The notes under the pieces are model-generated. The model saw nothing but the letters and a program-made list of their open reading frames with translations. It did not search any database and was not told the origin of the DNA. From NCBI GenBank assembly GCA_902769255.1, contig CACXOM010000002.1:62001-126000 (forward strand): a stretch of DNA of 64,000 bases, in the 5' to 3' direction. This DNA comes from Oscillospiraceae bacterium. GTDB lineage: Bacteria > Bacillota > Clostridia > Oscillospirales > Acutalibacteraceae. Positions 216 to 22,399 of the stretch are shown one piece after another. The translations under genes were made by a program, and so were the position numbers. Numbering within the stretch: position 1 is the first letter of the stretch; the number at the start of each line of letters is the position of its first letter.

Positions 216-1934
216 TTGGTGTGGTGCAAGAATTGTAACCGTGAAACCGATGAAGAAGTTTGCAGTGTTTGCGGAATAAAGACCGAGGAAGATATTCCTT
301 ATGAACTGCACTGGTGTGATAAATGCAAGGTTCCGCTTATCAAAGCAGTAAACGGCGCAGACCGTGATACTTGTCCTCTTTGTGGTGGTAATACATCGTA
401 TCTAGTTGCAGACTTAAGACCTGTATTCCCGGAAGAGCGTTTGCTTTTAGAAATTCTCTTGGACAAGCCACTTGCCTATATCAAAAAAAGCGTATGGGCG
501 TCAAATAATCGATATTATATAGATGGAAAACCTATAGTTGTAACTGCTGCGTGGTATAAGAAGTATTCAGCCGCGTATATCAGAGAACAACTCGAAAAAT
601 ACAAGGAACAGAATAACTACGATTTCTTTAATAAGAACATAGCAACCTTTATCAGAGCGAACCAAGGTCGCCTTGATTACCTGAAGTATGAAGCAAATAT
701 CTTTATTCAGGAGTCGGCAGCTAAATACCCTCGTGAAAACATTGTTCTGTCCTTTTCCGGTGGTAAGGATTCCACGGTAACCGCTGATCTAGTGGTAAAA
801 GCACTTTCTGATCCTAGTCTTGTACATATCTTCGGTAATACCACCCTTGAGTTCCCGTTCACGATTGAATATGCTGAGCGATTTAAGAAGAATAATCCTA
901 AGGCTATCTTCAAGGTTGCCAAAAATAAAGAGCAGAATTTCTACGAGGTCTGTGAGGACATTGGACCTCCGGCAAGAATGCTTCGTTGGTGCTGTTTTAT
1001 GTTTAAGACAGGACCTATTTCTCGCGTTATTTCTAGCCTTTACAGAGATAAGAGTATTCTGACTTACTACGGCATCCGCAAATGCGAATCCGTAAGCAGA
1101 AGTAAATACAACCGAATAGAAGATAATGCTGAGTCTACAAAGATTCAGCAGCAGACGGTTGCAACACCTATCTTCTTCTGGAAAGATATTGATATTTGGC
1201 TTTATCTTCTCGGTGAAGAAGTTGAATTTAATGATGCATATCGTTTGGGATACGATCGTGTTGGCTGTTGGTGTTGCCCGAACAATAACATTCGTGCAGA
1301 ATTCCTTTCTCAGATATATATGCCTGAGCAGTATGAGAAGTGGCATAGTTTCCTGATTGATTTTGCAAAGCGCATCGGAAAGCCCGACCCCGAAGAGTAT
1401 ATTAACTCTGGCAAGTGGAAAGCTCGTCAGGGTGGTAACGGTGTGGCAGCAGCATCTGATGTAAAGATTAAATTTACCAACTGCACAACCGAAGAAAATG
1501 CTAAAGTATATCAACTGAAGCGACCGGTAGATGATTGCCTTATTGGTTTGTTTACACCCTTTGGAAGAATAGCCCCCGAGCTTGGTCGCAAGTTAATCAA
1601 CGAAACAATCGTTGTAGACATTAAGACTAATGTGCCGATTATTTCAATTCAACCCTTCTCACAGGACGGATTTGAATATGCGGTAAAAGTTAAAACAATG
1701 AATGTAGCAAAGCACGATGACTTGCAGAGAATGATTGGTTATCAGATCAAGAAATTTAATGCTTGCCGTAAGTGCTTAAAGTGTGAGTCCCTTTGTAGAT
1801 TCGGTGCCATCTCTATTATCGGTGATACCTATTACATCAACGATAAGAAATGCAAAAGGTGCAAGATGTGTGTTACTGCAAAGTACTTAGATGGCGGTTG
1901 CCTAATGGACCGTTACCTGAAGACTAAGGACTAA
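216..1934 (+). CDS. DndC-like PAPS-reductase-family protein with zinc-ribbon and ferredoxin-like segments
   Basis: The 572-residue protein probably activates or transfers sulfur for DNA phosphorothioation, as DndC does. The N terminus has two CxxC pairs (residues 4-19), then a second cysteine set (WCDKC and CPLCGG, about residues 33-60), both looking like zinc ribbons. A PP-loop SGGKDS at about residue 181 is the ATP-pyrophosphatase signature of the PAPS reductase/DndC family. The last 60 residues carry CRKCLKCESLC and CKRCKMC, which resemble a ferredoxin cluster-binding domain. A TTG (216) or GTG (219) start fits the GGAGG at 205-209. It heads a co-directional run with the DUF4007 gene 12 bases downstream. 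The added cysteine modules are not part of classical DndC. BrxP of type 4 BREX is the other PAPS-reductase defence protein to compare. The family call is firm and the chemistry is inferred. Confidence 0.85.
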   Translation: MVWCKNCNRETDEEVCSVCGIKTEEDIPYELHWCDKCKVPLIKAVNGADRDTCPLCGGNTSYLVADLRPVFPEERLLLEILLDKPLAYIKKSVWASNNRYYIDGKPIVVTAAWYKKYSAAYIREQLEKYKEQNNYDFFNKNIATFIRANQGRLDYLKYEANIFIQESAAKYPRENIVLSFSGGKDSTVTADLVVKALSDPSLVHIFGNTTLEFPFTIEYAERFKKNNPKAIFKVAKNKEQNFYEVCEDIGPPARMLRWCCFMFKTGPISRVISSLYRDKSILTYYGIRKCESVSRSKYNRIEDNAESTKIQQQTVATPIFFWKDIDIWLYLLGEEVEFNDAYRLGYDRVGCWCCPNNNIRAEFLSQIYMPEQYEKWHSFLIDFAKRIGKPDPEEYINSGKWKARQGGNGVAAASDVKIKFTNCTTEENAKVYQLKRPVDDCLIGLFTPFGRIAPELGRKLINETIVVDIKTNVPIISIQPFSQDGFEYAVKVKTMNVAKHDDLQRMIGYQIKKFNACRKCLKCESLCRFGAISIIGDTYYINDKKCKRCKMCVTAKYLDGGCLMDRYLKTKD

Positions 1935-1946
1935 AGGAGCAAGAAT

Positions 1947-2825
1947 ATGAAGTTTAGAGCACACGATACCTTTTTCATCCGTAAAGGATGGTTAAATAAA
2001 GGTATGCGAAATGTGAAAATAGAGCCGACAGTATTTATGGGAGCAAAAGGTAACCCTATGGATATTCTCGGAATCGGTGCAAACATGGTAAAGGCATTGA
2101 GGTATTGGCTGCAGGCAGTCAAACTTACCACGGAGCCAAATGCAGGACGTAGAGAGCAGTCATTTACACCCTTTGGAGAGATTGTTTTTAAGAACGACCC
2201 CTACATTGAGGAAATGGGTACACTTTGGTTACTGCATTACATGCTTGCATCTAATAAAGACGAAGCAACTGCCTGGTACTTCTTTTACAATGAGTTCAAG
2301 CAGAGTGAGTTTAACAAGGAGGATTTTGTAAAGCAGCTCTCTAACTACATTATGATTAACGGTGAAGAGGTATCTGAAAGATCGTTGGAAGATGATTATA
2401 ACTGCATCATCAACACATATGTACCCCGTATCAAATCTTCTCCTGAAAAAGTTCAGCCGGAGAGCAATATTGATTGTCCTCTTGGTGAACTCGGATTGAT
2501 TGATATCAGCAACCGAAAGGAAAAGCTTTATAAGAAATCTGTTCCGAAGAAAGATACTCTTCATCCTCTAGTTCTGCTTGCTGTTATTCTCGATCAGGCG
2601 AACGGCGAAGAGGAAATTAAGATTTCTGCAATTCAGAATGATGTATGTAATGCCGGTAAGATATTTAATCTTGATATAATCACATTGACAGCATTACTCT
2701 ACAAAATCGAATTGATGGGATACATCAAGGTTGTTCGTACAGCAGGACTTGATGTTATCCGCATTGCTAAGCCGATGACCTTCCTTGAGTGTGTGGAAGA
2801 GTATTATAAGGCAATCAATAAATAA
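1947..2825 (+). CDS. DUF4007-family protein
   Basis: The 292-residue soluble protein begins with FRAHDTFFIRKGWLNKG and continues LGIGANMVKALRYWL, the conserved N-terminal pattern of DUF4007, a family found beside PAPS-reductase genes in defence islands. The C-terminal third (from about residue 200) looks like a winged-helix domain with hydrophobic helices, so DNA binding is plausible. It has a good Shine-Dalgarno (AAAGGAGC, 1933-1940) before ATG 1947 and is followed 18 bases later by the large ATPase gene. The biochemical role is unknown. The constant neighbourhood suggests it is a specificity or coupling subunit of the sulfur-modification complex, which is inference. Confidence 0.8.
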   Translation: MKFRAHDTFFIRKGWLNKGMRNVKIEPTVFMGAKGNPMDILGIGANMVKALRYWLQAVKLTTEPNAGRREQSFTPFGEIVFKNDPYIEEMGTLWLLHYMLASNKDEATAWYFFYNEFKQSEFNKEDFVKQLSNYIMINGEEVSERSLEDDYNCIINTYVPRIKSSPEKVQPESNIDCPLGELGLIDISNRKEKLYKKSVPKKDTLHPLVLLAVILDQANGEEEIKISAIQNDVCNAGKIFNLDIITLTALLYKIELMGYIKVVRTAGLDVIRIAKPMTFLECVEEYYKAINK

Positions 2826-2843
2826 AGACAGGAGGCTGTTGCC

Positions 2844-5800
2844 GTGTTTAACAATAAAATAGATGTAGCAAAAGGTTTTCAGACTTCTGTAAATATCGCG
2901 TATGATCTGAATAACACGGGTAAGATTTCCGGATTTATTCCTACCATGTCCTCGTTAGACATCATTGAGGATGTTATGCTGAGTACGGCGCCGAATTCTA
3001 CTGAAAGAGCAAGAATCCTTATTGGTGCCTACGGACGTGGAAAATCTCATATTATTCTTGTTTTGCTTTCTCTTCTCTATAAGAAAGATAAGGCGCTTTT
3101 TGCTAATTTGCTCGAAAAGATGAAGAAAAGCAATCCGAAACTCTATGACTATACGAATGAGTTTATTGACAGTGGAAGAAAGCTGCTTCCCATTGTTGTC
3201 GGAGGCAGTAGCGCAAGTCTTACTCAGTCATTCCTTTTTGCTTTGCAACAGGCACTTAATGACGAAAACCTCAGCGACATTATGCCTGAAACTCATTTTA
3301 AGGCGTCTGTCAATGCGATTGAGAGTTGGAAGAAAGATTACCCTGAAACCTATAATAAGTTTTTAGAAGCCTTAAATGAACCTATTGAACAGTTCATTCT
3401 TTCCTTAAAGGAATACAATGTTGAGGCGTATGAAAAATTCGTCGAATTATATCCGAGCCTGACTTCCGGCAGTAGTTTCAATCCTTTCCTTGGTTTCGAT
3501 GTTGTGGAGCTCTACGAAAAGGTTGTAGACAAGCTATGTGAGGTCGGGTATGACGGAGTTTACATTGTTTATGATGAGTTTAGTAAATATCTTGAATCGA
3601 GCATAGGTAACGCCACAATCAGCGATATTAAGCTGTTGCAGGATTTTGCAGAGAAATGTGTACGTAGTGGTAAAAAGCAGATGCACCTTATGCTCATTTG
3701 CCATAAGGATATCTCAAACTATATCGACAACAATCTGCCTAAAGAGAAAGTAGACGGTTGGAGAGGTGTGTCCGGTCGCTTTAAGCATACAACACTTCAC
3801 AACAACTTTGCGCAGATGTATGAAATTATTTCTGCTGTTATCAAGAAGGATCCTGATTTCTGGAAGGATTTTGTATCTAAATACAAGCCACAGCTTGAGG
3901 ATCTCAAGGAACGCTATGTTGCAAACGGTTTGATCGACGGCAAGGATACGGAAGGCGTGAACTCTGCTATTTACGGTTGCTATCCTTTGCATCCGGTATC
4001 GACCTTTATTCTGCCGCGTCTTTCTGAAAAAGTTGCTCAAAACGAAAGAACCTTGTTTACTTTTTTGTCCTCTCAGGAAAAGCATACTTTGTCTTCTTTC
4101 CTTGAGAGTGCAGACGGTGAGTTCCCGTTATTGACACCTGATTATCTGTACGATTATTTTGAACCCCTTTTCCGAAAAGAGGTTTATACCAGTGAGATTC
4201 ATAAAATTTATAAACTCACTTCTAATATTCTACAGAAGCTTGACGGTGGTTCTATTCACGCGAGAATTATCAAAACTATTTCCTTAATTTACATGGTTGA
4301 GCAGTATGAGAAACTGCCTCCTGTATACGACATCATTGTTGATGCCTTTCGTGAGAGTGTTACAGATACAAAGGAAATCAGTAATGCACTTGAAGAACTT
4401 ATAAACAAGGATTGCATCGTTTATCTCAAGAGAAGCAATAATTACTTGAAGCTCAAAGAGAGCAGCGGTGTTGATATTCCCGGTGAAATCGAAAAGAGGA
4501 TAGAGAGTAATAAAGCAACTTTAAGAGTAAAGGATGTTCTCAACAACTCTTCTTTCGACAGTTATATGTATCCTACCAGATATAACGACGAGCACGAGAT
4601 TACCCGTTATTTTGATTTTCTTTTCATTGACAGTGAGGAATTTTGGTCCACAGAAGATTGGGATTTAAAAATCTCGGATACGCTGGCTGACGGTGTGATA
4701 TATGCAGTAATTCCTGAAAATAAGGAAGATATTGCGAAGATTGCAAAGAAGATTACATCCGATACATACGGGGAAAGAGTTGTATTCTGCCTGCCTAAGA
4801 AGTATACCGATATTGAGAAGGTTGCTTTTGAATACAGTGCAGTTTGTGAACTTAAAAACCTCATTGTAGACGATGAACTTTTGAAAGATGAATATGAGAT
4901 TTATATTGAGGATCTCGAAGAAGTTATCGGCTCGTTCATTTTCTCTTATGCTCGCCCCGAAACCGGTGGCGCTGACTATTACCATGCTGGCAAGAAGGTT
5001 GCTGTCTTCCGTAAGGCTCAGATGTCAGCACTTCTCTCTGAGATTTGTGAGAAGGTCTACCCACATGCTCCGATTATTAATAACGAGTCAATCAACAAAA
5101 ACATTCTGCCAACAGTGGCTATAAACAGCAGAGCAAAGCTCCTTAATGGACTGCTGAGCAATGAACTTGAGCCCAATCTTGGACTTTCCGGTACAGGTCA
5201 GGACGTTTCGATTATGAGAAGCACTCTTGTGCAGACAGGTGTTGTAAAGAATGTCGCAGAAGCACCTGAAATTGTAGTTGCACCTGAAGACGAGAATATG
5301 AAGTATATGCTCTGCGCTATTCAGACCTTCTTTGCTAATGCCGGTATTAATGGTGAGCAGAACTTCGCAACATTGTATGAACGTCTTACAAAACCTGAAT
5401 ATGGTATCGGTCTTAAGACCGGTGTTATCCCGATTTACATTGCAGCTATCATCCATCTGAACCGTAGCAACCTGGTTATTAAAAAAGGTAATTCGGAACA
5501 GAAAATAACTGCAGATTTGCTTAACGGAATCAATGACAACCCAAGCAATTATTCCGTTGTTCTTGAGGACTGGAACGAGGAAAAAACTGCATATCTGGCT
5601 CAACTCGAACAATTGTTTGAAGAGTTTATTCACGAGCAGGAAAAAGTATATAATAGCTTTGCTTATATCGTTTCTGCTATGAATCGCTGGTATATGTCTT
5701 TGCCAAAGTTCGCCAAGGAAATGACAAAGACTTATAAAGGTAAGGAAGAGTTTAAGACTATTTCCGCTAGCCACCGTAAATTTGTAAACAGTTTGAAGCA

Positions 5801-6464
5801 GCTTGATATTAACCCGAGAGAATACTTGTTTGAAAAGGTGTTTGCGCTCTTTGGATTTAAAGAGTTTAGTGCTGATGTAGTTGATAATATCGCTCAGACA
5901 AAAAAAGAGTATGACGTTGCTATTGTATCGCTGCTTAAAGCACTTGTTTCTGATCTTAAGATCCTTTTTACTCCCAAAGGCCAGGATGTAAGAGGTTCGC
6001 TTACTTCAATCATTCAGGATTGGTATTCTTCTTTGAAGGAGACAACTATACAGCATCTATTTGCGAACAGTGAGAATCAGATTCTTGATTTGATGAAGAC
6101 GATTACCAATGACGAAACAACCTTCACACAGCGCCTTGCTAAGGCAGTAACTGCTCTTAGAGTAGAGGACTGGAACGAAGGAACTATTGCAACCTTCATC
6201 AAAGACCTTACTGTTTTTAAAGAAACTATTGAGGAGTACGACTCGCAGATTATTGACGAAACTTCTGCTGCTGATTCCTATAAGTTGATTACAACTGATA
6301 GTGAGGGCAGAGAGGTAGTCAAGACCTTTAACAGAAGCGAATACAGCAACAGAGCCAAACTACTCTATAATGAAATTACCAATTCTATTGACGAAATGGG
6401 TCAGTCCATTACTGAACAGGAGAAGAGACAGATCCTTATTGAAATTCTTGAAAAGCTTTGTTGA
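2844..6464 (+). CDS. Very large P-loop ATPase, BrxC/PglY-like
   Basis: The 1,206-residue protein has an N-terminal Walker A (GAYGRGKSH, about residues 62-70) and a Walker B-like strand (IVYDEFSKYL, about residue 240). The GxxGxGKSH form followed by a long helical body is typical of the BrxC/PglY class of BREX ATPases and of DndF-like ATPases. It starts at GTG 2844 behind an AGGAGG (2830-2835). The remaining 900 residues are mostly helical with no nuclease motif that I can see. It sits between DUF4007 and the cysteine desulfurase in one operon. It probably uses ATP to scan DNA or to assemble the interference complex (inference). Assignment to BrxC rather than another STAND/ORC-like ATPase rests only on motif shape and size. 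Confidence 0.7.
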   Translation: MFNNKIDVAKGFQTSVNIAYDLNNTGKISGFIPTMSSLDIIEDVMLSTAPNSTERARILIGAYGRGKSHIILVLLSLLYKKDKALFANLLEKMKKSNPKLYDYTNEFIDSGRKLLPIVVGGSSASLTQSFLFALQQALNDENLSDIMPETHFKASVNAIESWKKDYPETYNKFLEALNEPIEQFILSLKEYNVEAYEKFVELYPSLTSGSSFNPFLGFDVVELYEKVVDKLCEVGYDGVYIVYDEFSKYLESSIGNATISDIKLLQDFAEKCVRSGKKQMHLMLICHKDISNYIDNNLPKEKVDGWRGVSGRFKHTTLHNNFAQMYEIISAVIKKDPDFWKDFVSKYKPQLEDLKERYVANGLIDGKDTEGVNSAIYGCYPLHPVSTFILPRLSEKVAQNERTLFTFLSSQEKHTLSSFLESADGEFPLLTPDYLYDYFEPLFRKEVYTSEIHKIYKLTSNILQKLDGGSIHARIIKTISLIYMVEQYEKLPPVYDIIVDAFRESVTDTKEISNALEELINKDCIVYLKRSNNYLKLKESSGVDIPGEIEKRIESNKATLRVKDVLNNSSFDSYMYPTRYNDEHEITRYFDFLFIDSEEFWSTEDWDLKISDTLADGVIYAVIPENKEDIAKIAKKITSDTYGERVVFCLPKKYTDIEKVAFEYSAVCELKNLIVDDELLKDEYEIYIEDLEEVIGSFIFSYARPETGGADYYHAGKKVAVFRKAQMSALLSEICEKVYPHAPIINNESINKNILPTVAINSRAKLLNGLLSNELEPNLGLSGTGQDVSIMRSTLVQTGVVKNVAEAPEIVVAPEDENMKYMLCAIQTFFANAGINGEQNFATLYERLTKPEYGIGLKTGVIPIYIAAIIHLNRSNLVIKKGNSEQKITADLLNGINDNPSNYSVVLEDWNEEKTAYLAQLEQLFEEFIHEQEKVYNSFAYIVSAMNRWYMSLPKFAKEMTKTYKGKEEFKTISASHRKFVNSLKQLDINPREYLFEKVFALFGFKEFSADVVDNIAQTKKEYDVAIVSLLKALVSDLKILFTPKGQDVRGSLTSIIQDWYSSLKETTIQHLFANSENQILDLMKTITNDETTFTQRLAKAVTALRVEDWNEGTIATFIKDLTVFKETIEEYDSQIIDETSAADSYKLITTDSEGREVVKTFNRSEYSNRAKLLYNEITNSIDEMGQSITEQEKRQILIEILEKLC

Positions 6465-6478
6465 AAGGGGTGAGATGC

Positions 6479-7633
6479 ATGGAAAAGGTGGCATACTTTG
6501 ATAATGCTGCAACAACATTTCCGAAACCGGAATGCGTATATAATTTTACAGATCAATTCTACCGTGAGTGCGGCGTGAATGTTGGCAGGGGTCAGCATAA
6601 GCTCGCTTCCAGAGCATCGGCACTCGTTCAGGAAACAAGAGAACTGCTTTTAGAACTGTTTCATTGTCCTGCAAAGAAGGTTGTTTTTACTCATACTGCA
6701 ACAGAGGCAATCAACCTTATTCTAAGAGGATTGCCTATTAACGATAACTACACGGTTTATATTTCTCCGTTTGAGCACAATGCAGTAACCCGTGTTCTTT
6801 ATCATTTGCAGTCGATGTATGATATTCAGGTTGAAACGCTCTGTTTTGACAAGGTGACAATGACCTATGATATTGCAAGGATTCGTAATCAGTTTGCTGA
6901 GAAAAAGCCTAATTGGATGGTAGTAAGCCATGCGAGTAATGTCTGCGGTGTGGTATCTCCGATTAAGGAGCTTTGTCACCTATCAAAAGAGTTTGGGGCT
7001 ATTAATATCGTTGATATGTGCCAAACAGCGGGCCTTGTTGATACCGACCTAAGTGGTGAGGATATAGACTTTGCCGTGTTTGCAGGACATAAGACATTAT
7101 ACTCGCCGCTTGGCGTTGCAGGTGTTGTCAGCAGTTTTGCAATAAAACCTCAACCACTTTTGTTTGGCGGTACCGGTGTGGAATCTGCTAATCAAGCGTT
7201 ACCGGAAAGTGTTCCGGAGCGATATGAGGTTGCAAGTCCTGATATTGCTGCCATTGCAGGATTAAATGCCTCTCTTAAATGGATTAAAGAAACAGGTATT
7301 CAAAATATCTATGAGAAAGAGCAGGAAAACTTTAAGCGTCTTGTTGAACTTCTTTCAAGGTATGAGAATATCAGGATTATTGATACTATCGATGCAGAGT
7401 CGATAGGTGTCGTTTCGTGTTTGTTTGATGGATATGGTAGCGATAATATAGGGCAGATTCTCAGCGAACAGAATGTTGCTGTCAGAACCGGACTTCACTG
7501 TGCACCGACTGCACATAAATTCATTGGTACTTTTCCTGCAGGAACTGTTAGATTTAGCGTAAGCTACTTTAACACTGATGAAGACTTTGATGTTTTAGAA
7601 GCTGCACTCGATTATATTGAATTGAATTCATAG
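6479..7633 (+). CDS. Cysteine desulfurase, DndA/SufS-like
   Basis: This is a 384-residue PLP enzyme that releases sulfur from cysteine as a persulfide. The start YFDNAATTFPKP, the PLP lysine in AGHKTLYSP (about residue 203) and the catalytic cysteine in RTGLHCAPTAHK (about residue 341) are all present, so it should be active. The RxGxHCA context is that of the SufS/CsdA (group II) type. ATG 6479 is preferred over the TTG at 6458 because AAAGGGGTGAG lies just upstream. The gene overlaps or abuts the ATPase gene and is followed by a small gene. In a phosphorothioation island it is the sulfur donor, replacing DndA. A housekeeping Fe-S role is less likely in this context. Confidence 0.85.
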   Translation: MEKVAYFDNAATTFPKPECVYNFTDQFYRECGVNVGRGQHKLASRASALVQETRELLLELFHCPAKKVVFTHTATEAINLILRGLPINDNYTVYISPFEHNAVTRVLYHLQSMYDIQVETLCFDKVTMTYDIARIRNQFAEKKPNWMVVSHASNVCGVVSPIKELCHLSKEFGAINIVDMCQTAGLVDTDLSGEDIDFAVFAGHKTLYSPLGVAGVVSSFAIKPQPLLFGGTGVESANQALPESVPERYEVASPDIAAIAGLNASLKWIKETGIQNIYEKEQENFKRLVELLSRYENIRIIDTIDAESIGVVSCLFDGYGSDNIGQILSEQNVAVRTGLHCAPTAHKFIGTFPAGTVRFSVSYFNTDEDFDVLEAALDYIELNS

Positions 7634-7641
7634 GTGAGTAT

Positions 7642-7932
7642 ATGAGAGAAAGAGATTTTGAAGAATACTTGCTGTCTGATGAATCAATTAAGAGCAAAAT
7701 GAAGGCCGTCAATTCAAGACTCAGTAAGGCAAGACTAATTGAAAGAGAACTTGGAGTAGACCTTGATGATGTTGTTTCCGATGACGAAAAAATGTTTCAT
7801 ACTCTTATGAGAGTAAAGCAGGAAACTAACGATCATAACGGTAACAATTCAAATGCTCTTCGCAAGTATTATGAATTTTCAAACGGAAGAAGATTTCCAA
7901 CATTAGCTGAATACAAGTATAAGGTGGTGTGA
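7642..7932 (+). CDS. Small island protein, unknown
   Basis: The 96-residue, charged, probably helical protein (RERDFEEYLL at the start, LAEYKYKVV at the end) has no cysteines or known motif. It starts 8 bases after the desulfurase stop and ends 4 bases before the GTG of the helicase gene, so it is clearly part of the operon. It does not resemble DndE, which is of similar size but has a conserved basic helix. It could be an adaptor between desulfurase and helicase. That is a guess from position only. Confidence 0.65.
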   Translation: MRERDFEEYLLSDESIKSKMKAVNSRLSKARLIERELGVDLDDVVSDDEKMFHTLMRVKQETNDHNGNNSNALRKYYEFSNGRRFPTLAEYKYKVV

Positions 7933-7936
7933 TGCT

Positions 7937-10143
7937 GTGAGTTTTCAAGAACTCGATATAAAAAAGAATATCGTTCTCTGCTTGACAGTGTCGCAAAGGA
8001 CTTTTATATTCCGTTGCTTAGCTGTGCCGTAAAATATCAAAGAGCAGTTGGCTTTTTCTCCTCTTCTTCTTTGGTAGAGATATCAAAGGGTATCTCTGAA
8101 CTTGCAAAGAATGGCGGTAAAATACAATTGGTTGCATCTCCGTATCTGTCTGATGAAGACATCGAGGCAATTAAAAGCGGATATGCAATGAGAGATCAGG
8201 TTGTTAAGGAAGCAATCCGCAGAGAAATGACAGAAGGTAAGACGCCTTTTGAAAAGGCGCGGCTCAACCTGCTGGCGAATCTTATTTCAGACGGTGTTTT
8301 GGATATTAAGATTGCCTTCACAGAGGACTCTGACCGTATGGGAATGTACCACGAAAAGATGGGCATTATCACCGATGCAGAAGGTAACAGGGTAGCCTTC
8401 GCAGGATCTATGAATGAGTCGGCTACAGCAATGACTCTCAACTATGAAACTATAGATGTTTACTGTTCTTGGAAGGACGAAGAGGATCGTGTAATCGCAA
8501 AGGAAAATGCCTTTGCATCTATTTGGAACGATACCGAGCCGAATATCAAGATAATTGATTTTCCCGAATTGAAGCAAGAAATCATTGAAAAATATAAACG
8601 CTCTGTACCGGACTTTGAGATTGATAAAAAGGAATACGCACCTGACATCGATACAGTTTTACATACAGATTTAGGTGTTTATTCTGAATATGGTCCAAAA
8701 TTTCCTGAGTGGTTTAAGCTTCATGACTATCAGGATGAAGCAATTACTGAATGGCAGAAACGCAATTACAGAGGAATTTTTGATATGGCTACCGGTACCG
8801 GTAAGACATACACGGGACTTGGCGCTCTGACAACCCTGAGCAAGAATATAGGGCATAAGCTGGCAGCAATTATCGTCTGTCCTTATCAGCACCTTGTCGA
8901 GCAATGGGTAGAGGATATTTTAAAGTTCAATATTGACCCGATAATCGGATATAGTGATTCCTCGCAAAAGGATTGGCCAAAGCGTTTGAAGGATGCAATC
9001 CGAGACCAAAAGTTAAAGGTGAGAGGAAAAGAATTCTTCTGCTTTATCTGCACTAATGCAACTTTCAGTTCCGATTATGTTCAAACCCAGTTAGCAAAGA
9101 TAAAATCAGACACACTCTTAATGGTAGACGAAGCTCATAACTTTGGCGCGCCATACTTAAGTTGTTTGCTCTATGATAATTACAAATATCGTTTGGCATT
9201 GTCAGCAACCCTCGACCGGCATAATGACGAGGAAGGTACAGCAAAGCTCTATGATTTCTTTGGCGAGAAATGTATTGAATATACTCTTGACCGAGCAATT
9301 GAAGAGAAGAAACTTACTAAGTATAAATACTATCCCATCGTTGTTACACTTACTGAAGAAGAACTTGAGGCATACGATAATCTCAGTTATGAAATCGGAA
9401 AGTGTATTATGAAGGGTAAGAACGGTAAGATGAAGCTAAGCAGCAGGGGAGAAAAACTTGCTCTTAAGCGTTCTCGAATCGTTGCCGGTGCCAAGAACAA
9501 GCTGACAATGCTTGAAGAGGTTATTCAGCCATATATTCATGATAAACACATTCTTGTTTATTGCGGTGCGACTAAGGGACTTGAGCAAAATCAAGACTGT
9601 ACTGATGTTGACAGTGAGGATATCAGACAGATTGATGCAGTGACCGACCTGCTGGGCAATAAGCTCGGTATGGAAGTGTCACAGTTTACATCAAAGGAAA
9701 GTGTTGAAGAGCGTGAGGTTCTCAAACGGGAATTCTCTGCCGGTGATACATTGAAGGTTCTTATCGCCATTAAATGTCTTGATGAAGGTGTCAACATACC
9801 GAAGATAAAAACGGCGTTCATTTTAGCAAGTACGACCAACCCTAAGGAGTATATCCAAAGACGCGGTCGTGTGCTGAGACTAGCAGAGGGTAAGGAATAT
9901 GCGGAAATTTATGATTTCATCACCTTGCCATACGATACCGAGTCGGTAACCTCGCTGACAGAGGCACAGGTCAAACGGAATTCAACACTTGTAAAAAATG
10001 AATTGAGGAGAGCTGAGGAGTTTTCCCGTATTGCTGTTAATATGGTTGAATCCGCAAGTCTCATTGATGAGATTAAGGATGCATATGGAATACAAGAATT
10101 AAATTGGAATAACGAAGAGGAGGATTATGGCTATGGCTTCTGA
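7937..10143 (+). CDS. PLD-nuclease/SF2-helicase fusion, apparently expressed by -1 frameshift
   Basis: From about residue 20 onward the frame encodes an N-terminal phospholipase-D-type nuclease domain (HEKMG and GSMNES motifs, about residues 135-165) and a C-terminal superfamily 2 helicase: FDMATGTGKTYTG (motif I), VDEAHNFG (motif II), LSATLDR (motif III) and QRRGRVLR (motif VI). The uninterrupted frame runs only from 8014 (TTG) or earlier, and has a stop at 7930. A GTG at 7937 behind AAGGTGGTG opens the neighbouring frame. This gives VSFQELDIKK, and a -1 slip on A AAA AAG (7960-7966) joins it exactly to EYRSLLDSVAKDF. The full product is about 735 residues. It probably unwinds and cuts unmodified DNA. 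The frameshift could be programmed, a mutation or a sequencing error. Confidence 0.8.
7960..7966 (+). promoter_or_regulatory. Slippery heptamer A AAA AAG for -1 frameshift
   Basis: In the frame opened by GTG 7937 the codons read ATA AAA AAG, so A AAA AAG sits in the X XXY YYZ phase used by the dnaX frameshift site. Slipping back one base continues in the long helicase frame. Without the slip the ribosome stops at TAA 8030-8032 after 31 residues. A missing A in the six-A run would look identical. Confidence 0.55.
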
Positions 10144-10309
10144 AAAAATGGAAGTGAACGGTGTTGAAATAGATGTTCAAAAGGCACAGCGTATGCTGCA
10201 ACGCATAATCGTTCGTGAAAAAACGAATATCAAGACAAAGCAGTTCAATGATACTGAGATGGCAAAGAAAATAAAAAAGATGATTGAGGAGGAAGTACAA
10301 TGCTATTAA
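10133..10309 (+). CDS. Small island protein, unknown
   Basis: The 58-residue basic protein, rich in lysine and with a helical C terminus (AKKIKKMIEEEVQCY), overlaps the helicase stop by 11 bases and the DndD-like start by 10 bases. That shows translational coupling. ATG 10133 is preferred over 10127 because the GAGGAGG Shine-Dalgarno then sits at the usual distance. No family is recognised. Its position directly before the DndD-like ATPase suggests a subunit or regulator of that protein. Confidence 0.6.
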   Translation: MASEKMEVNGVEIDVQKAQRMLQRIIVREKTNIKTKQFNDTEMAKKIKKMIEEEVQCY

Positions 10310-12285
10310 AATCGTTAAAGCTGAAGGACTTCCGCCAATTCAAAGGTGAACAGGAGATTACCTTCTCAACCGATCCGGTTCGTAATGTAACCGTAATTAT
10401 GGGTGAAAACGGCTCCGGTAAAACTACTCTTGCTCAAGCATTTACCTGGTGCCTTTATGGGGACACTGACTTCGATGACAAGTCTATGCTATGCAAGGCA
10501 ACTGCACAATCGATGCTACCGGGAAACGAGGAGAAGGTCCGTGTAGAGTTGGCACTTCAACACAATAATATCGAATATCTTTGTATCCGTGAGCAGCTTT
10601 ATTCAAAGGATAATTCCGGTTCTATCAGAAGACATAACCAGACCACCTTCAAGATTGCTTACAAGAACGCTGACGGTCAACGTGAGTATGTTCCCGATGG
10701 GGAAACGGAACTACGTATGAAGGAAATTCTTCCTAAAGAACTTTCAAAGTATTTCTTCTTTGACGGTGAGCGAATAGGCAATATGAGTAAGGAAATCCGT
10801 AAAGGCAAGAGTGCTGAATTTGCCCAAGCAGTTCGCAGTCTTCTCGGTCTTAGTGCGTTTCAATCTGCGCTTGACCATCTTGGTGGCCGTAACTCGGTTA
10901 TCAAGATGTACAACGAGAGTTATGACACTAAGAGTGACAGTAAGATAGCTCAGTATACCAAGGAAATTGAAGAGTACGAAGAAAAACTTCGTGCCATTGA
11001 AGAAAGACTTGCTGCTATTGACGGCGAAGAAGCTATTGCTACAGATAAGAAGGCAGAGCTTGAGGAAGAAATTCGTCTAAACAAGGATAGTGAGATTCTT
11101 GCAAAAGAACGTGACGAGCTTGTTCGAAAGATAAAAGAACTGGTTGCAAAAAAAGCTTCCAGTGAGGATTCACTGCTAAAAGTGTTTAACAATAATGCGC
11201 ATTCTTATTTTGCCAAGAAGATGATGAGCGACGCTCTTTCTCAACTTGCTGCTGCAGATAAGATTGACACAGGTATTCCTTATATCCATGCCAAGACTAT
11301 TGAATTTCTTATTAAGCGTAAAAAGTGCATTTGCGGTGCCGATATTGAATTCGGTAATGAAGCATACAAGGAATTAAATGACCTGCTTGAGTTTATTCCG
11401 CCGCAGTCTATCGGCACATCAATCGGTCAGTTTGTTCGTGAGTGCGAATTAAGGTGCAAGAGTTCTGATACACTCTTTGAGGATATTTCTACTAAGTTTG
11501 GCTTCATCAGAGAGTTTGATAATACATACACCGGATACCAGAATCAAATCAACATTATTCGAGAGAAACTCGAAAAGATGAAAAATGTTGGCGAGTTACA
11601 GGCGCGTTTAAGCACCTATGAAAGAGCACTTCGCAATCTTTCTGTTGAAAGACGAGACCTTGACCGTAATCAGGCTCTGCTTGAAAGAGATAAAGAACGC
11701 AGAGAAACTGAGCGTAAGGAACTCTCATTGAAGGATGAGAACAATCGAAAGATTGAAGTTTATAAGGCATATGCTCAGTATATGTACGCTACGCTGCTTT
11801 CTCTCTATCAGGAAAAGGAAACCGAAACCAGGCAGCAACTTGAGCAAACTGTCAATGAAATCTTCAAGAGCATTTATAACGGTGGTTTTTCTCTCAGTAT
11901 TGATGAGAAGTACAACATTCAGGTTATTGTCAATGAGTTTGAAGGTATTAATGAGGATGTTGAGACCTCTACAGCTCAGAGTATTTCGGTTATCTTTGCA
12001 TTTATTGCCGGTGTTATCAAAATGGCTCGTCAGAGTCAGAATCCCGAAAATGAAATGCTTGTGTCCGAGCCTTATCCACTTGTGATGGATGCTCCGCTTT
12101 CTGCATTCGATAAGACCCGTATCCGTACTGTTTGTGATGCGCTTCCCAAGGTTGCAGAGCAGGTTATCATTTTCATTAAGGATACTGACGGTGAACTAGC
12201 AGAAACCTATATGGGCGATAAGGTTGGTAGCCGTTTTGAATTTGACAAGAAAAACGAATTTGAAACTAATTTGGTTACGAGGTGA
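10300..12285 (+). CDS. DndD-like SMC/Rad50-type ATPase
   Basis: The 661-residue ABC-type ATPase has an N-terminal Walker A (GENGSGKTT, about residues 35-43) and the DndD-typical FFFDGERI segment (about residue 151). A coiled coil from about 205 to 280 leads to a CxC hook (KKCICGAD, about residue 345), followed by a second coil. The C-terminal Walker B is MDAPLSAFD (about residue 595). The family is thought to provide conformational change or DNA nicking activity for sulfur insertion next to DndC. Its start overlaps the preceding small gene and its stop overlaps the next gene. The length is close to that of DndD proteins. I regard the family call as firm. The CxC hook replacing the Rad50 CxxC is worth noting. 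Confidence 0.85.
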   Translation: MLLKSLKLKDFRQFKGEQEITFSTDPVRNVTVIMGENGSGKTTLAQAFTWCLYGDTDFDDKSMLCKATAQSMLPGNEEKVRVELALQHNNIEYLCIREQLYSKDNSGSIRRHNQTTFKIAYKNADGQREYVPDGETELRMKEILPKELSKYFFFDGERIGNMSKEIRKGKSAEFAQAVRSLLGLSAFQSALDHLGGRNSVIKMYNESYDTKSDSKIAQYTKEIEEYEEKLRAIEERLAAIDGEEAIATDKKAELEEEIRLNKDSEILAKERDELVRKIKELVAKKASSEDSLLKVFNNNAHSYFAKKMMSDALSQLAAADKIDTGIPYIHAKTIEFLIKRKKCICGADIEFGNEAYKELNDLLEFIPPQSIGTSIGQFVRECELRCKSSDTLFEDISTKFGFIREFDNTYTGYQNQINIIREKLEKMKNVGELQARLSTYERALRNLSVERRDLDRNQALLERDKERRETERKELSLKDENNRKIEVYKAYAQYMYATLLSLYQEKETETRQQLEQTVNEIFKSIYNGGFSLSIDEKYNIQVIVNEFEGINEDVETSTAQSISVIFAFIAGVIKMARQSQNPENEMLVSEPYPLVMDAPLSAFDKTRIRTVCDALPKVAEQVIIFIKDTDGELAETYMGDKVGSRFEFDKKNEFETNLVTR

Positions 12286-12290
12286 GAATG

Positions 12291-12815
12291 ATGTTTGATA
12301 AAGAATATTCTTTTAGAGGAAAACACGCTGAATATGTTGTGAAACTTACGGCGGAATATGACGATAAGCATCATAAGCTCTTCAATACCAACTATGATGT
12401 TTACGCTATTGCTCCTATTATCGGCTTTTTATATCAGAGAAAAGCAGAGCTTGATAAAACCGGAGATGCAACTAAGATATTCCCGGACAAGCTTATAAAA
12501 GAGCAGCAGAACCTACTTTTTAACTATCGATTGATTATGTTGCTTGATGAAAAGCACGAGGCTGACTTTAACGAGAGAATCAACAAAGCTTTCCGTTATT
12601 ACGGACAAGAAAAGGCAGCACCGGACGAAGAACTCTACGAAAACTATGTTAGAGGCGGTGTTGAGGTGCTTTTTGAAAAATTGATTGAACCTGCAAGAAG
12701 TGCTGAAGATTATTTGACAAATCTCTACGACTTTATGGAAGAGTTTGATGAGAGGTACAACGAGTCGGTTACAACCGAGAGCATTGTTGATCTGTGCCAG
12801 TTAGCAAAGAATTAA
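12291..12815 (+). CDS. Uncharacterised island protein following the DndD-like ATPase
   Basis: The protein is about 174 residues, acidic, with predicted helices and no signal or membrane segment. GTG 12282, ATG 12288 and ATG 12291 are possible starts. GAGGTGA at 12279-12285 favours 12291. The gene overlaps or abuts the DndD-like gene, the position that DndE holds in classical operons, but I do not see the DndE sequence pattern. It may be a functional analogue acting with the ATPase. The function is unknown. Confidence 0.65.
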   Translation: MFDKEYSFRGKHAEYVVKLTAEYDDKHHKLFNTNYDVYAIAPIIGFLYQRKAELDKTGDATKIFPDKLIKEQQNLLFNYRLIMLLDEKHEADFNERINKAFRYYGQEKAAPDEELYENYVRGGVEVLFEKLIEPARSAEDYLTNLYDFMEEFDERYNESVTTESIVDLCQLAKN

Positions 12816-12844
12816 TCACATGAGGTACAAAAGGGGGTGAAACC

Positions 12845-13909
12845 GTGCACGAGGGAATCATTGAAAAATTATATCAGGAATATACCGTGCACGGTTTTAT
12901 CTCCGAAGATCATATCTTTGATGTACTTGAAGAGAATGGAATTTCGTTATTCGATGTAGAGTATATCTGTGATCATCTTTTGTCGAAAGGTGTCATTATT
13001 CGCGATGATGCCTTGACCGATGATGAAGAGGATGAGTACGACAGAAGCAATGTTGATTACGAAGAAGTATTTTCAGAGGTTTTGAAGATAGATGATACCT
13101 TCTCGGACTTCATTGAATACATTCGTGGAATAAAGCCGCCACAGCACAGAGAGTGGATGAATCTGATGCCGCAGGTGAAACTCAAAAATGCATATGCTCG
13201 GAACCGTATTTTTGAGATGTATATGAAGGTGGCTGTGAGAATCGCGTTAGTACACGCAAAAAGATATCATCTTCCCTTGGACGAAACCATTCAGAACGCA
13301 ATGATGGGTCTCCATGTATCAATAGATAAATACGAAACTGCCCGTCAGGAAAACTTCGCATCGTACTTTCCATTATGGGTTAGACAGTTCATAATGAGAG
13401 ATGCTCCAACGCTTAATCCGTCAGTATATTTTCCGTTTCATATCAAAGACAAGCTTTTCGCTATCTATGATAATATGGAGGATTATTTTGGAGATATTGA
13501 AGACAGAACAGAGCCGGGAATTGAACTATTGCAGAGTATTGCAACCGAGCTTGAATGTACTTTAGTTGAGGCGAGGCGGTTGTTTGACTATCTTGCTCCT
13601 TATGAAAGCATTGAAGAATTGTCGGAAAATGAAGAGAATGAGTTGTTGTTCTCAGATGATGGTATCGGGTATGAAAATATGATTTCGTTAGTTGAAAGGA
13701 ATTTTGACACAGATGACCTCCAAATAAAACTATCAAAACTTACATACCGTGAACAAGAGGTGCTTCGTCTTCACTATGGTATTGGTTATGACCATGAATA
13801 TACGCTTGACGAAATCGGTCAAAAATTCTGTGTTACAAGAGAGCGTGTTCGTCAGATTGAAGCTAAGGCACTTCGCAAACTTCGACATAGATATGGTATT
13901 GATGATTGA
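12845..13909 (+). CDS. Sigma-70-family factor inside the defence island
   Basis: The 354-residue protein has an acidic N-terminal region (DDEEDEYDRS). It continues with a region 2-like helical block ending in FASYFPLWVRQFI, and a C-terminal region 4 helix-turn-helix of the form LTYREQEVLRLHYGIGYDHEYTLDEIGQKFCVTRERVRQIEAKALRKLRH. That last pattern is the hallmark of primary-type sigma region 4.2 (the long string here spans residues of one domain near 300-350). GTG 12845 lies behind AAGGGGGTG. It follows the DndD cluster by 29 bases on the same strand. It may direct transcription of the island or of the element when needed. A purely DNA-binding regulator that lost core-polymerase contacts is the alternative. 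Confidence 0.75.
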   Translation: MHEGIIEKLYQEYTVHGFISEDHIFDVLEENGISLFDVEYICDHLLSKGVIIRDDALTDDEEDEYDRSNVDYEEVFSEVLKIDDTFSDFIEYIRGIKPPQHREWMNLMPQVKLKNAYARNRIFEMYMKVAVRIALVHAKRYHLPLDETIQNAMMGLHVSIDKYETARQENFASYFPLWVRQFIMRDAPTLNPSVYFPFHIKDKLFAIYDNMEDYFGDIEDRTEPGIELLQSIATELECTLVEARRLFDYLAPYESIEELSENEENELLFSDDGIGYENMISLVERNFDTDDLQIKLSKLTYREQEVLRLHYGIGYDHEYTLDEIGQKFCVTRERVRQIEAKALRKLRHRYGIDD

Positions 13910-13955
13910 AAAAATGCAGAACGACTGTAATTCTAGCAATATATGAAAAGGTATG

Positions 13956-13961
13956 TATAAT
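13956..13961 (+). promoter_or_regulatory. Candidate -10 element before the GIY-YIG/DGQHR pair
   Basis: TATAAT preceded by TG lies 25 bases before the chosen start. No good -35 box is seen 17 bases upstream, so activator help, an extended -10 or a different sigma factor would be needed. Confidence 0.3.
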
Positions 13962-13986
13962 TATTTAATTTATGGTGGTAATCGCT

Positions 13987-14496
13987 ATGCCTCAAAATGT
14001 AGATATATTTGAAGAGTCGATATTGTTCCAAGTCGACTTTGAATTAAATATTGATAAATGGGATACTATGGATGAAGGAATAAAAGCAGTTGTATCATCT
14101 GGTTGGAAATATATAAAATATTTAAACGAAGATGGAACAGCGGTAAACGATAGTATATGCGAACTTCCCAACGATTGTGGCGGCATATACATATTCATGC
14201 TAAAACCAGATATAATACAGAAAAATCATAGATATATTATGTATATAGGGAGAGCTCACCGTGCAACAAACTATAGCCTTCGTAAGAGATGTGCCACATA
14301 TATAAATGATACACGTCCTAAGGTTGCTCGTATGATAAGTCGTTGGGGTAGAGGCCTATATTTATATTATTTGCCTATCAATGGCACAGATGATTTTATC
14401 GACAAGGTTGAACGGGAATTGCTAAGAGTGATTATACCTCCAATGAATTCACAGATACCAGATCACTATACTTTACCCGAACAAAATCTGTTTTAA
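13987..14496 (+). CDS. GIY-YIG nuclease-domain protein
   Basis: The 169-residue protein contains GGIYIFM and YIMYIGRA (the GIY and YIG strands, about residues 60-85), a downstream arginine-rich helix (SLRKRCATYI) and a glutamate in VERELLRVI, the expected metal ligand. This supports a small GIY-YIG endonuclease. ATG 13987 is chosen over 13972 because GGTGGT then lies 7 bases upstream. It is 11 bases from the DGQHR gene and probably co-transcribed. Both genes are visibly more AT-rich than the preceding island genes, suggesting separate acquisition. It could cut modified or unmodified DNA. The target is unknown. Confidence 0.7.
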   Translation: MPQNVDIFEESILFQVDFELNIDKWDTMDEGIKAVVSSGWKYIKYLNEDGTAVNDSICELPNDCGGIYIFMLKPDIIQKNHRYIMYIGRAHRATNYSLRKRCATYINDTRPKVARMISRWGRGLYLYYLPINGTDDFIDKVERELLRVIIPPMNSQIPDHYTLPEQNLF

Positions 14497-14507
14497 GGAG
14501 AATTATT

Positions 14508-15779
14508 ATGTCACTGAAAATACCAGCAATTCGTTCAAAAATGGGAATATGGTTTTACTATGTAAGTTCCCTTAGTTTTAAAGAAGTATCGCGTTATGTA
14601 CGTCCGATTGATGATGAACTTCATCATTCCGATTTATTAAGCGGGATGATTCAAAGAAGCATTACTTCAAACTATAAAAGTATTGCTAATTATTTAGAAA
14701 CTCAGAGTGAAAGATTTTTCAACTCGTTAATACTCGCAGTATATGACGGGCAGCCTAAATGGAATGAAATCAGGATCGAAGACGAACAAGGAGAAGATAA
14801 CTATAACTTAGGGGTTATCACCTTAACTGATGATGTCAAAATATTTCCTGTAGATGGTCAGCATCGCGTTGCGGGCATTAAAAAAGCAATTGAAGATAAT
14901 CCGACAATGGAAGAAGAACGAGTTCCAGTCATTTTTATTGGCCATTCAAAAGATGAAACGGGTATGCAGAGAACAAGAAGGATGTTTAGCACATTAAATC
15001 GCTACGCAAAGCCTGTTTCATTAAGAGATATTATTGCGTTAGATGAAGACGATGTTGTTGCAATCGCCTCTAGAAATTTGTTAGATAATACAGATTTGTT
15101 CGTTGACGGCAGAATTTTAGATTCAAAAAACAAATCCATACCAGAAACTAACGATATGGCACTTACAACAATTATAACTTATTACGAATGCAACAAAGAA
15201 TTACTATGGTTATATGTTAAGGATATAGATGTTATTGGTCTTGAAGAAAAAATTGTTAGAGGACGAGCGAAAATTAATGAGTATATTAGGCATAGGCCAT
15301 CTAACAATATTATTGCAGCGTTCACCGAAGAATGCAAATGCTTTTGGAAAGCTATATTAGATCATTGTTCTGAGATAAAGAATCCTAATGTAAAAGTGGG
15401 AGAATATAGAAATTCTGACGGAGGTTGCATTTTCTTTAGACCTATTGCATTGTATCCTTTTGCTAGAGCTGCGGTGAGAATAAAAGAAAATTATCAAACA
15501 TCATATTCAGAAATAATACACTCAATTCCAAATGATTTGTTATGGATACAAAATCGTTTATGGAAAAAGATTATTTGGGACGATGTTGCTAAGAAAATGG
15601 TTATGGGCAACGCTACATTAATTGAATTAATATTACTTTACATTGCTGCTCCTGAGCTTTTGTCGGATAAAGAAAATAAAAAGATCATAGACAATCTTAA
15701 AAGCATTTGGGATGAAGCGGATGGCACTATTGTTCAGGAACGATTAGATAGTATTATCCGTGGTGATATGTATATTTGA
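14508..15779 (+). CDS. DGQHR-domain protein, DndB-like
   Basis: The 423-residue protein carries the exact motif VDGQHRVAGI (about residues 123-132), the signature of the DGQHR/DndB family. DndB is a regulator of phosphorothioation operons, and DGQHR proteins recur in such islands. The following block (SKDETGMQRTRRMFSTLNRYAKP) is also typical of the family. AAGGAG lies before ATG 14508. Here it is at the 3' end of the island and paired with a GIY-YIG gene instead of preceding dndC. It may repress the modification genes, or act with the nuclease as a separate DGQHR-plus-nuclease unit. Confidence 0.8.
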   Translation: MSLKIPAIRSKMGIWFYYVSSLSFKEVSRYVRPIDDELHHSDLLSGMIQRSITSNYKSIANYLETQSERFFNSLILAVYDGQPKWNEIRIEDEQGEDNYNLGVITLTDDVKIFPVDGQHRVAGIKKAIEDNPTMEEERVPVIFIGHSKDETGMQRTRRMFSTLNRYAKPVSLRDIIALDEDDVVAIASRNLLDNTDLFVDGRILDSKNKSIPETNDMALTTIITYYECNKELLWLYVKDIDVIGLEEKIVRGRAKINEYIRHRPSNNIIAAFTEECKCFWKAILDHCSEIKNPNVKVGEYRNSDGGCIFFRPIALYPFARAAVRIKENYQTSYSEIIHSIPNDLLWIQNRLWKKIIWDDVAKKMVMGNATLIELILLYIAAPELLSDKENKKIIDNLKSIWDEADGTIVQERLDSIIRGDMYI

Positions 15780-15945
15780 TGAACTTTTGATAAGCTGCAT
15801 TTTCTTATGCATCGCAACAGTTTTATGCTTTTTCCGCCGATGTGTTATGGTTTGTATTGAGTCCGATAAAAATAGTATATGATCTTTTATCAACATAGCG
15901 TGAACGTCATAAAATCCTAGATGATTTCAGCTGAGATTTACAAAT
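15780..15945. other. Junction between defence island and element backbone
   Basis: This 166-base convergent gap lies between the DGQHR gene and the DUF6076 gene. I see no RNA gene, strong terminator or repeat in it. It may be a joint between cargo and element backbone because base composition changes on either side. Confidence 0.4.
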
Positions 15946-22310: not shown

Positions 22311-22399
22311 TGGCGGAGAGTTAGGGATTCGAACCCTAGGTTCCTTTTGGGAACACAGCATTTCGAGTGCTGCACCTTCGACCACTCGGACAACTCTCC
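22311..22399 (-). tRNA. tRNA-Ser (anticodon CGA), probable integration target
   Basis: Reading the minus strand, GGAGAGT at the 5' end (22399) pairs with ACTCTCC near 22315. The discriminator is G and CCA is encoded (22313-22311). The anticodon loop CTCGAAA gives CGA, and a long variable arm (TGTTCCCAAAAGGAACC) confirms a serine tRNA. The T-loop is GGTTCGAATCC. Its 3' end faces the integrase gene, so the 3' part is the probable attB/attR core. Confidence 0.95.

Follow-up and report, generated by a model that had tools for sequence, protein, structure and literature searches.

A predicted SspABCD-PbeABCD locus pairing a known phosphorothioation module with a known restriction module in an Oscillospiraceae bacterium

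Among the described DNA phosphorothioation (PT) systems are those in which Dnd modification is coupled to restriction by the Pbe proteins (PMC6459918). Both Pbe and the Ssp modification module also occur apart from their described partners: section 9 of PMC8092258 reports neither SspE nor SspFGH in 2,211 of 2,678 sspBCD loci (printed as 83.9%), and PMC6459918 finds that dndCD is missing for 320 of 553 PbeAC pairs and that methylase genes lie close to 155 of the 320. In the portion consulted, PMC7464106 tallies both kinds of PT genes together with pbeA-D and does not set Ssp apart, and PADLOC provides a catch-all model, "PT_other" (PMC9252829). Here we analyze a locus at positions 216-15779 of a 64,000-nucleotide stretch of Oscillospiraceae bacterium DNA (assembly GCA_902769255.1, contig CACXOM010000002.1, positions 62,001 to 126,000; hereafter the window), in which Ssp modification genes are followed by Pbe restriction genes. 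Such a pairing is stated nowhere in the main-text literature searched, supplements aside, where the partners given are Dnd or methylases for Pbe, and SspE or SspFGH for Ssp; it seems undescribed so far, and may stand in supplementary tables.

Gene content and family assignment

The locus comprises 12 genes, all on the + strand and separated by intergenic gaps of at most 62 bp or by short overlaps, in the following order:

216-1934, +: sspD, 572 aa, BrxP-like PAPS-reductase/PP-loop sulfurtransferase with a cysteine-rich N-terminus and a ferredoxin-type C-terminus
1947-2825, +: sspB, 292 aa, DUF4007, DNA-recognition/nickase subunit
2844-6464, +: sspC, 1206 aa, AAA+ ATPase of the SspC/BrxC group
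6476-7633, +: sspA, cysteine desulfurase
7642-7932, +: x96, 96 aa, small all-helical protein between the Ssp and Pbe modules
7940-10143, +: pbeA, HKD (PLD-type) nuclease-SF2 helicase, frame interrupted near its start in the assembly
about 10132-10300, +: pbeB, 54 aa, overlapping the end of pbeA
10300-12285, +: pbeC, CxC-type ABC ATPase
12288-12815, +: pbeD, 175 aa, DndE-like DNA-binding subunit, weakly recognised
12845-13909, +: sigma-70-like protein (Sigma70_r4, 63 bits)
13972-14496, +: GIY-YIG-like small protein, by motif only
14508-15779, +: DGQHR protein, DndB family (PF14072, 99 bits, cut-off 29.1; PADLOC DndB, 70 bits)

The locus proteins were searched with the PADLOC, Pfam and NCBIfam profile libraries, which assigned eight of the 12 genes to Ssp, Pbe or DndB families (PbeD weakly). 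These assignments resolve the locus into two known modules plus accessories, and by its sequence the island is identified as an SspABCD-PbeABCD system. An earlier sequence-only reading had described a BREX-like island with a distinct sulfur-based system. The genes that it named lie about where it placed them, co-directional and with homology far beyond chance, and its proposal that PT-type modification and restriction genes share one operon is borne out by the Ssp and Pbe profile matches. The idea of a distinct system, however, is not supported: the locus is neither BREX nor new sulfur chemistry, and what seems new is that two known modules, one for modification and one for restriction, occur as a pair.

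Within the modification module, SspD matched the PADLOC BrxP model at 255 bits, SspD at 49 and DndC at 40, and PF01507 at 104 bits. Its SGGKDS motif and seven ferredoxin-region cysteines are kept in 37 of 37 aligned long SspD proteins (the alignments used for catalytic residues excluded rows under set bit scores and lengths). A BrxP-like architecture is noted for a subset of SspD in section 34 of PMC12839542, and the window gene is, to judge by these signatures, such a long BrxP-like SspD. SspB was recognised by PADLOC (211 bits), by PF13182 (292 bits, cut-off 27) and by comparison with the solved SspB structure 6juf (E 1.2e-24). SspC scored 431 bits with the SspC model versus 162 with BrxC, its Walker A (GxGKS) and Walker B (DE) motifs being present in all 44 aligned sequences. 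The large ATPase and the DUF4007 protein are therefore known Ssp parts, which is in part what the sequence-only reading had itself named as evidence against a distinct system. The desulfurase, earlier called DndA-type, is SspA: PADLOC SspA scored 117 bits and DndA 106, TIGR01977 390 bits (cut-off 377), and the PLP lysine and catalytic cysteine are conserved in 37 of 37 aligned sequences; its start is probably the ATG at 6476 rather than 6458. By analogy with characterised systems, SspABCD probably writes phosphorothioate into the host DNA here. The BREX-like impression arose because SspB, SspC and SspD are truly homologous to type 4 BREX proteins (PMC12839542, section 34); the homology is real, but the parts form an Ssp module.

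The PLD-helicase and the DndD-like ATPase likewise proved to be known Pbe parts. PbeA matched the PADLOC model at 801 bits and TIGR04095 at 503 bits, under that model's cut-off of 600, and its HxK..D, GSxN, Walker A (GxGKT) and DExH motifs are kept in 31 of 31 aligned sequences. PbeC scored 372 bits with PADLOC PbeC and 114 with DndD, with the CxC of its coiled coil kept in 28 of 28. Homology to PbeA reaches to about 7940, upstream of the listed TTG start at 8014, and between 7940 and 7970 the frame is broken in an A-run that resembles a slippery site. The break shows in comparison with relatives whose PbeA is 95-98% identical, and the start of the frame is uninterrupted in all 11 other pbeA loci read there. 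Programmed frameshifting was therefore rejected as the normal state of pbeA, an indel or an error of assembly being more likely. The break may reflect misassembly, an off-state or real loss of the gene; intact copies exist.

Two small proteins complete the Pbe set. The one read as 177 aa is a weak match to PADLOC PbeD (17 bits, E 9e-4), and the 54-aa pbeB had been missed by the earlier reading. No library profile used matched pbeB; it was recognised by its position between pbeA and pbeC and by a profile made here, which detects the gene in 30 of 32 loci with the same kind of PbeA, and a single-pair BLASTP comparison gave a short match to PbeB of Dnd-linked systems (E 5e-4). PbeD proteins are DndE cognates with two ribbon-helix-helix units. 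At E 0.01, TIGR04062 matches eight of 15 PbeD homologues and PADLOC PbeD five of 15, and the structure model of the window protein (pLDDT 85.5) contains two strand-helix-helix units. DndE had been reported as not recognised; its counterpart is probably present as PbeD, itself weakly recognised.

The absence of DndFGH, PglZ and BrxL noted earlier holds, none of them being among the matches listed for the locus. BrxL and DndH had no match anywhere in the genome (DndF and DndG were looked for at the locus only), and PglZ had a single match, on another contig and below cut-off (21.5 versus 25 bits). SspE gave no row for 11 of the 12 locus genes (the 54-aa pbeB was not covered) or for two downstream genes, and the search for SspE-type DUF262-DUF1524 proteins returned one 375-aa DUF262 frame on another contig. 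No SspFGH match was among those listed at the locus. There the scores of the DndC and DndD models fall well short of those of BrxP and PbeC, DndC, DndD and DndE having been searched at the locus only. An identity as type 4 BREX was rejected for want of PglZ and BrxL, and one as Dnd-DndFGH for want of DndH in the genome and of a canonical DndCDE set at the locus.

Recurrence, phylogeny and other partners of the two modules

A PbeA scan with one genome per species returned 17 loci. In 16 of them PbeA is preceded by SspA at a distance of no more than 2.6 kb, the two genes being mostly adjacent or separated by x96; in the 17th, the contig stops 1.1 kb upstream of pbeA. This set is biased, because its loci were found by likeness to the window PbeA. 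A less biased sample took 398 genomes evenly across the phylum, among them that of the window, with full-length PbeA defined as a match of 475 bits or more. DUF4007 was matched in 31 genomes and full-length PbeA in 22; both were found in 13 of the 398, versus 1.7 expected (P 8e-11), and PbeA and SspB lay within 10 kb of each other in 11 genomes (G000, G485, G536, G569, G611, G627, G713, G716, G744, G770 and G775), corresponding to 11/22 genomes with PbeA and 11/31 with DUF4007; the remaining two of the 13 are G665 and G478, whose halves are separated. In the order-level sample DUF4007 was found in 8 of 394 genomes, with PbeA beside it in four of the eight (the window's own, G139, G360 and G136). 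Gene order is largely constant and spacing tight over deep divergence, with five exceptions (L040, L019, L020, L028 and L029). At locus L042, Pbe stands beside the other Ssp subtype, with a short SspD and the order B-C-D, and on a Rhizobium indigoferae plasmid PbeC-PbeD-PbeA is convergent to SspA-B-C-D. The Ssp-Pbe pairing recurs in related bacteria. Both halves are present as open frames in two named strains, Pseudobacteroides cellulosolvens ATCC 35603 = DSM 2933 (L024) and Faecalibacterium prausnitzii ATCC 27768 (L034), and DNA sulfur is therefore directly measurable.

The histories of the two halves were compared on trees. For PbeA (41 rows: 30 Ssp-linked, 10 unlinked and one undecidable, near-copies of the window being kept), the Ssp-linkage label needs one change, with support 100/96, and none of 500 label shuffles was as low; Ssp-linked PbeA is one clade in the phylum sample. 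The SspC tree, built by a quick method without bootstrap, held 44 rows (27 Pbe-linked, 17 not) after rows shorter than 900 aa or below 660 bits had been dropped, with L041 and L044 set as linked by hand. Pbe linkage needs 10 changes on it, at least nine of them forced by well supported branches; shuffled labels averaged 13.8 changes, with 9 of 500 as low, so that some clustering remains. One change for PbeA versus ten for SspC indicates that the Ssp core swaps partners often, whereas the PbeA clade stays with Ssp.

Other neighbours were found for both modules. At L014 the Ssp core is accompanied by SspF, SspG and an SspH/DndH-like protein, and at L061:8492-17897 SspD-B-C is joined by one additional SspB-like and one additional SspC-like protein, as well as by a PglZ-like protein (35 bits) and BrxL (337 bits), perhaps an Ssp/type 4 BREX intermediate. 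On the Pbe side, a PAPS-reductase gene lies in the wider neighbourhood of two of 10 PbeA loci without Ssp, at a distance of about 10 kb in L066 and about 8 kb in L072. Two Rhodobacterales plasmids encode DndBCDE, a desulfurase, a sigma-like protein (region 4, E 6e-10), PbeA, a small gene, a PbeC-like ATPase, PbeD (annotated "DNA phosphorothioation-associated protein 4") and a DGQHR protein (E 1e-5), and are taken as the Dnd-linked counterpart of the window locus.

A further arrangement was seen at L013:7935-12421, where an SF2 helicase, a GHKL ATPase (MzaB-like, 40 bits) and a PLD protein (DrmC-like, 35 bits) sit directly after SspA, at the usual place of Pbe. A similar triad is indicated at L051:4023-8503 by gene sizes and one weak PbeA-like match, profiles having been run on L013 only. 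On a Treponema saccharophilum plasmid (L078:16892-21324), genes annotated as DUF4007, SspC-like and desulfurase are followed by the same succession of helicase, ATP-binding protein and PLD protein, again by annotation. The helicase-GHKL-PLD triad is a possible further Ssp effector, apparently undescribed.

Proposed mechanism and alternative readings

The family identities, conserved catalytic motifs, recurrent linkage and tree patterns observed here suggest a single operon-like restriction-modification system, in which Ssp would mark host DNA and Pbe would attack DNA lacking the mark; we assign this reading a probability of about 0.77. Its chemistry, PT dependence, antiphage effect and small-protein roles are proposed by analogy with PMC8092258 (sections 5 and 9), PMC6459918 and PMC10853773 (including section 16). 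From the roles inferred for characterised Ssp systems, SspA would draw sulfur from cysteine, SspD would activate it and pass it on, SspB would locate and nick a short DNA site, and the SspC ring ATPase would drive assembly, leaving a phosphorothioate in host DNA. PbeC and PbeD, a CxC ABC ATPase and a DndE-like protein, may then scan DNA for sites of this kind and sense whether they carry PT; where the mark is missing, the pair would allow PbeA, which combines a helicase and an HKD nuclease site, to halt replication of the invader. PbeB may be a small adaptor or brake, and the sigma-like, GIY-like and DGQHR proteins would be optional regulators or auxiliary effectors. As to how PbeA acts, no cleavage of viral DNA was seen with the archaeal Dnd-Pbe system (PMC6459918), while cleavage by the HKD site is argued for in PMC10853773; the conserved HKD residues found here favour the cleavage view without settling the matter.

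Several observations weigh against a single system. In the phylum sample, 11 of the 22 PbeA genes lack an SspB neighbour within 10 kb, and 20 of the 31 DUF4007 genomes lack a full-length PbeA within that distance of DUF4007, so neither half needs the other in general, and one genome (G665) holds both halves far apart. The window copy may be off, given its broken pbeA frame, unless this is an assembly error, and G631 likewise has a broken PbeA adjoining Ssp. PbeD is weak by sequence (19 bits versus a TIGR04062 cut-off of 74), and Foldseek gave its model no significant match, DndE 5wtu being returned with E values of 3.3-3.9 and TM scores of 0.49-0.56 relative to the target. Section 16 of PMC10853773 proposes that CxC-DndE systems act alone or by suicide. 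Finally, when the PbeA tree was extended to 46 rows by dropping two near-copies and adding seven plasmid loci, it needed two changes instead of one. The second is the Rhizobium indigoferae plasmid, on a long branch of unsure placement, which is probably a separate Ssp-Pbe pairing.

Part of this would be expected if two independent systems, a solitary Ssp modification and a separate Pbe suicide or restriction system, merely shared an island, and the presence of same-subtype Ssp modules beside other effectors, the unlinked PbeA genes and the separated halves in G665 and G478 agree with that. In G478 about 31 kb separate the halves; either half keeps one end of x96, and both inner ends bear a copy of the same 442-aa frame, which points to an insertion or an assembly join. 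(The split x96 corresponds to L041:9690-9848 and L076:9756-9995, with metabolic genes, judged by eye, between them.) Independence is nevertheless unlikely in view of the largely shared gene order and tight spacing over deep divergence, the observed excess of co-occurrence and the dedicated PbeA clade, and because Dnd-linked Pbe loci also have a sigma-like region 4 and DGQHR proteins beside their PT module. Less probable again is that PbeC and PbeD mainly modify, as a second scanning pair guiding SspD to extra sites, so that the operon writes two PT marks: PbeC does match DndD models, PbeD weakly matches a Dnd-associated family and the sulfur donor pair SspA and SspD is at hand, but the archaeal Dnd-Pbe system protected fully only with its complete set of four pbe genes (PMC6459918), and the conserved HKD site of PbeA points to an effector. 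We give marginally less credence still to a relative of type 4 BREX in which Pbe replaces PglZ and BrxL and the SspC/BrxC ring itself drives restriction. SspD does score best as BrxP, SspC also matches BrxC, and the L061 core stands beside PglZ-like and BrxL proteins; yet neither PglZ nor BrxL is among the matches listed for the locus or exceeds its cut-off in the genome, the SspC model beats BrxC, and DUF4007 is not fused to the reductase.

A recurrent SspABCD-PbeABCD pairing would account for part of the orphan sspBCD loci and of the PbeAC pairs without dndCD. It also raises the question of how one kind of effector obeys two PT marks and whether PbeC-PbeD carry the specificity. At about even odds, PbeABCD may be a portable reader-effector that has become specialised for a second mark, and the Ssp core a hub whose effectors can be exchanged. 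In the Ssp-linked clade, PbeC-PbeD would then read the mark made by SspABCD, which is single-stranded in the Ssp systems characterised so far, in place of the double-stranded Dnd mark, the effectors of the hub would be Pbe, SspFGH, BREX-like proteins and the helicase-GHKL-PLD triad, and much of what the literature records as "orphan" SspBCD and "solitary" Pbe would be explained. Against two Dnd-linked plasmid sets, identity is 36-37% for the window PbeA and 25% for PbeC, and PbeD can scarcely be aligned; for L036, from the Ssp-linked set, the values are 54, 32 and 34%. This divergence fits PbeC-PbeD as reader of the mark but does not show it, because PbeC and PbeD diverge faster within the Ssp-linked set too.

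Accessory genes, flanking DNA and comparison with known systems

The x96 gene is optional and lies beside sspA and/or pbeA wherever found (profile matches at nine loci, weaker pieces in others). Its structure model is helical (pLDDT 90.9), and the fold search returned nothing significant, with a weak, non-significant likeness to tyrosine recombinase core-binding domains. The sigma-70-like protein, which also matches RpoD_Cterm (E 6e-29) and MzaA (E 1e-33), both under their cut-offs, is encoded after pbeD in 14 of 32 loci with the same kind of PbeA and before sspD in one more; it is an accessory of the Pbe half. In systems without Ssp, the gene directly upstream of PbeA can encode a large protein, about 960-1330 aa in length, part of which resembles sigma region 4 (L067:6474-9986, L068:7126-10002, L069:9641-13066, L075:6022-10002 and L080:6897-9950), the match at L068 being below the Pfam cut-off; a 1128-aa protein at the same place in L070 had no match. 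The sigma-like domain seems to travel with Pbe.

For the small protein proposed to be a GIY-YIG nuclease, the motif residues hold (GIY, YxGR, LRxR, E and N are invariant in 7 of 7 homologues), but neither a Pfam or NCBIfam model within the limits set nor a meaningful structure supports the family, the only solved-structure row being an unrelated protein at E 0.52. The companion DGQHR protein belongs to the DndB family. In 7 of 7 loci that have one of the two genes, the other is present as well. They were also seen beside Ssp without Pbe (L013, L051), and a 98%-identical relative, L021, lacks the cassette at the corresponding place (window 13959-15790 versus L021:16016-16017). A GIY-like gene as a common feature of Dnd-Pbe loci was considered and dropped; the neighbouring 174-aa protein of L080, though alike in size, did not match the GIY-like protein and looks membrane-like by eye.

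Judging from its flanks, the island probably lies within an integrated element with putative ends. A tyrosine integrase (20952-22166) stands beside tRNA-Ser (22311-22399). On the right side, between 17956 and 22399, the window holds an AAA_25 (RepA-like) gene, mobilisation and ParB-like genes judged by eye, the integrase and the tRNA-Ser; on the left side (L002:15117-16031), a 13-bp repeat adjoins a partial tRNA-like stretch. No empty site was found among five related genomes, in which both flanks were never on one contig at matching places.

Among known systems, the MZA system resembles the locus in the MzaA-like domain of the sigma-like protein; no other Mza model is among the matches listed for the locus (for PbeC, the best 25 of 88). 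Type 4 BREX (BrxP, BrxC, PglZ, BrxL) has in common with it DUF4007, a BrxP-type reductase, a BrxC-like ATPase and a desulfurase, whereas the window is without PglZ and BrxL and has DUF4007 separate from the reductase. SspABCD-SspE and SspABCD-SspFGH (PMC8092258) share homologues of SspA, SspB and SspC and an SspD alike in function; in the window SspD is long and BrxP-like, the restriction genes are Pbe, and no SspE or SspFGH is among the matches listed. The DndCDEA-PbeABCD system of Haloterrigena jeotgali (Xiong 2019, PMC6459918) has the same four Pbe proteins in the same order after a PT module. The window differs from it in that its modification module is SspDBCA, not DndCDEA, and its PbeA falls in a clade of its own in the phylum sample, and two Dnd-linked bacterial plasmid Pbe loci share with the window both the sigma-like and the DGQHR proteins.

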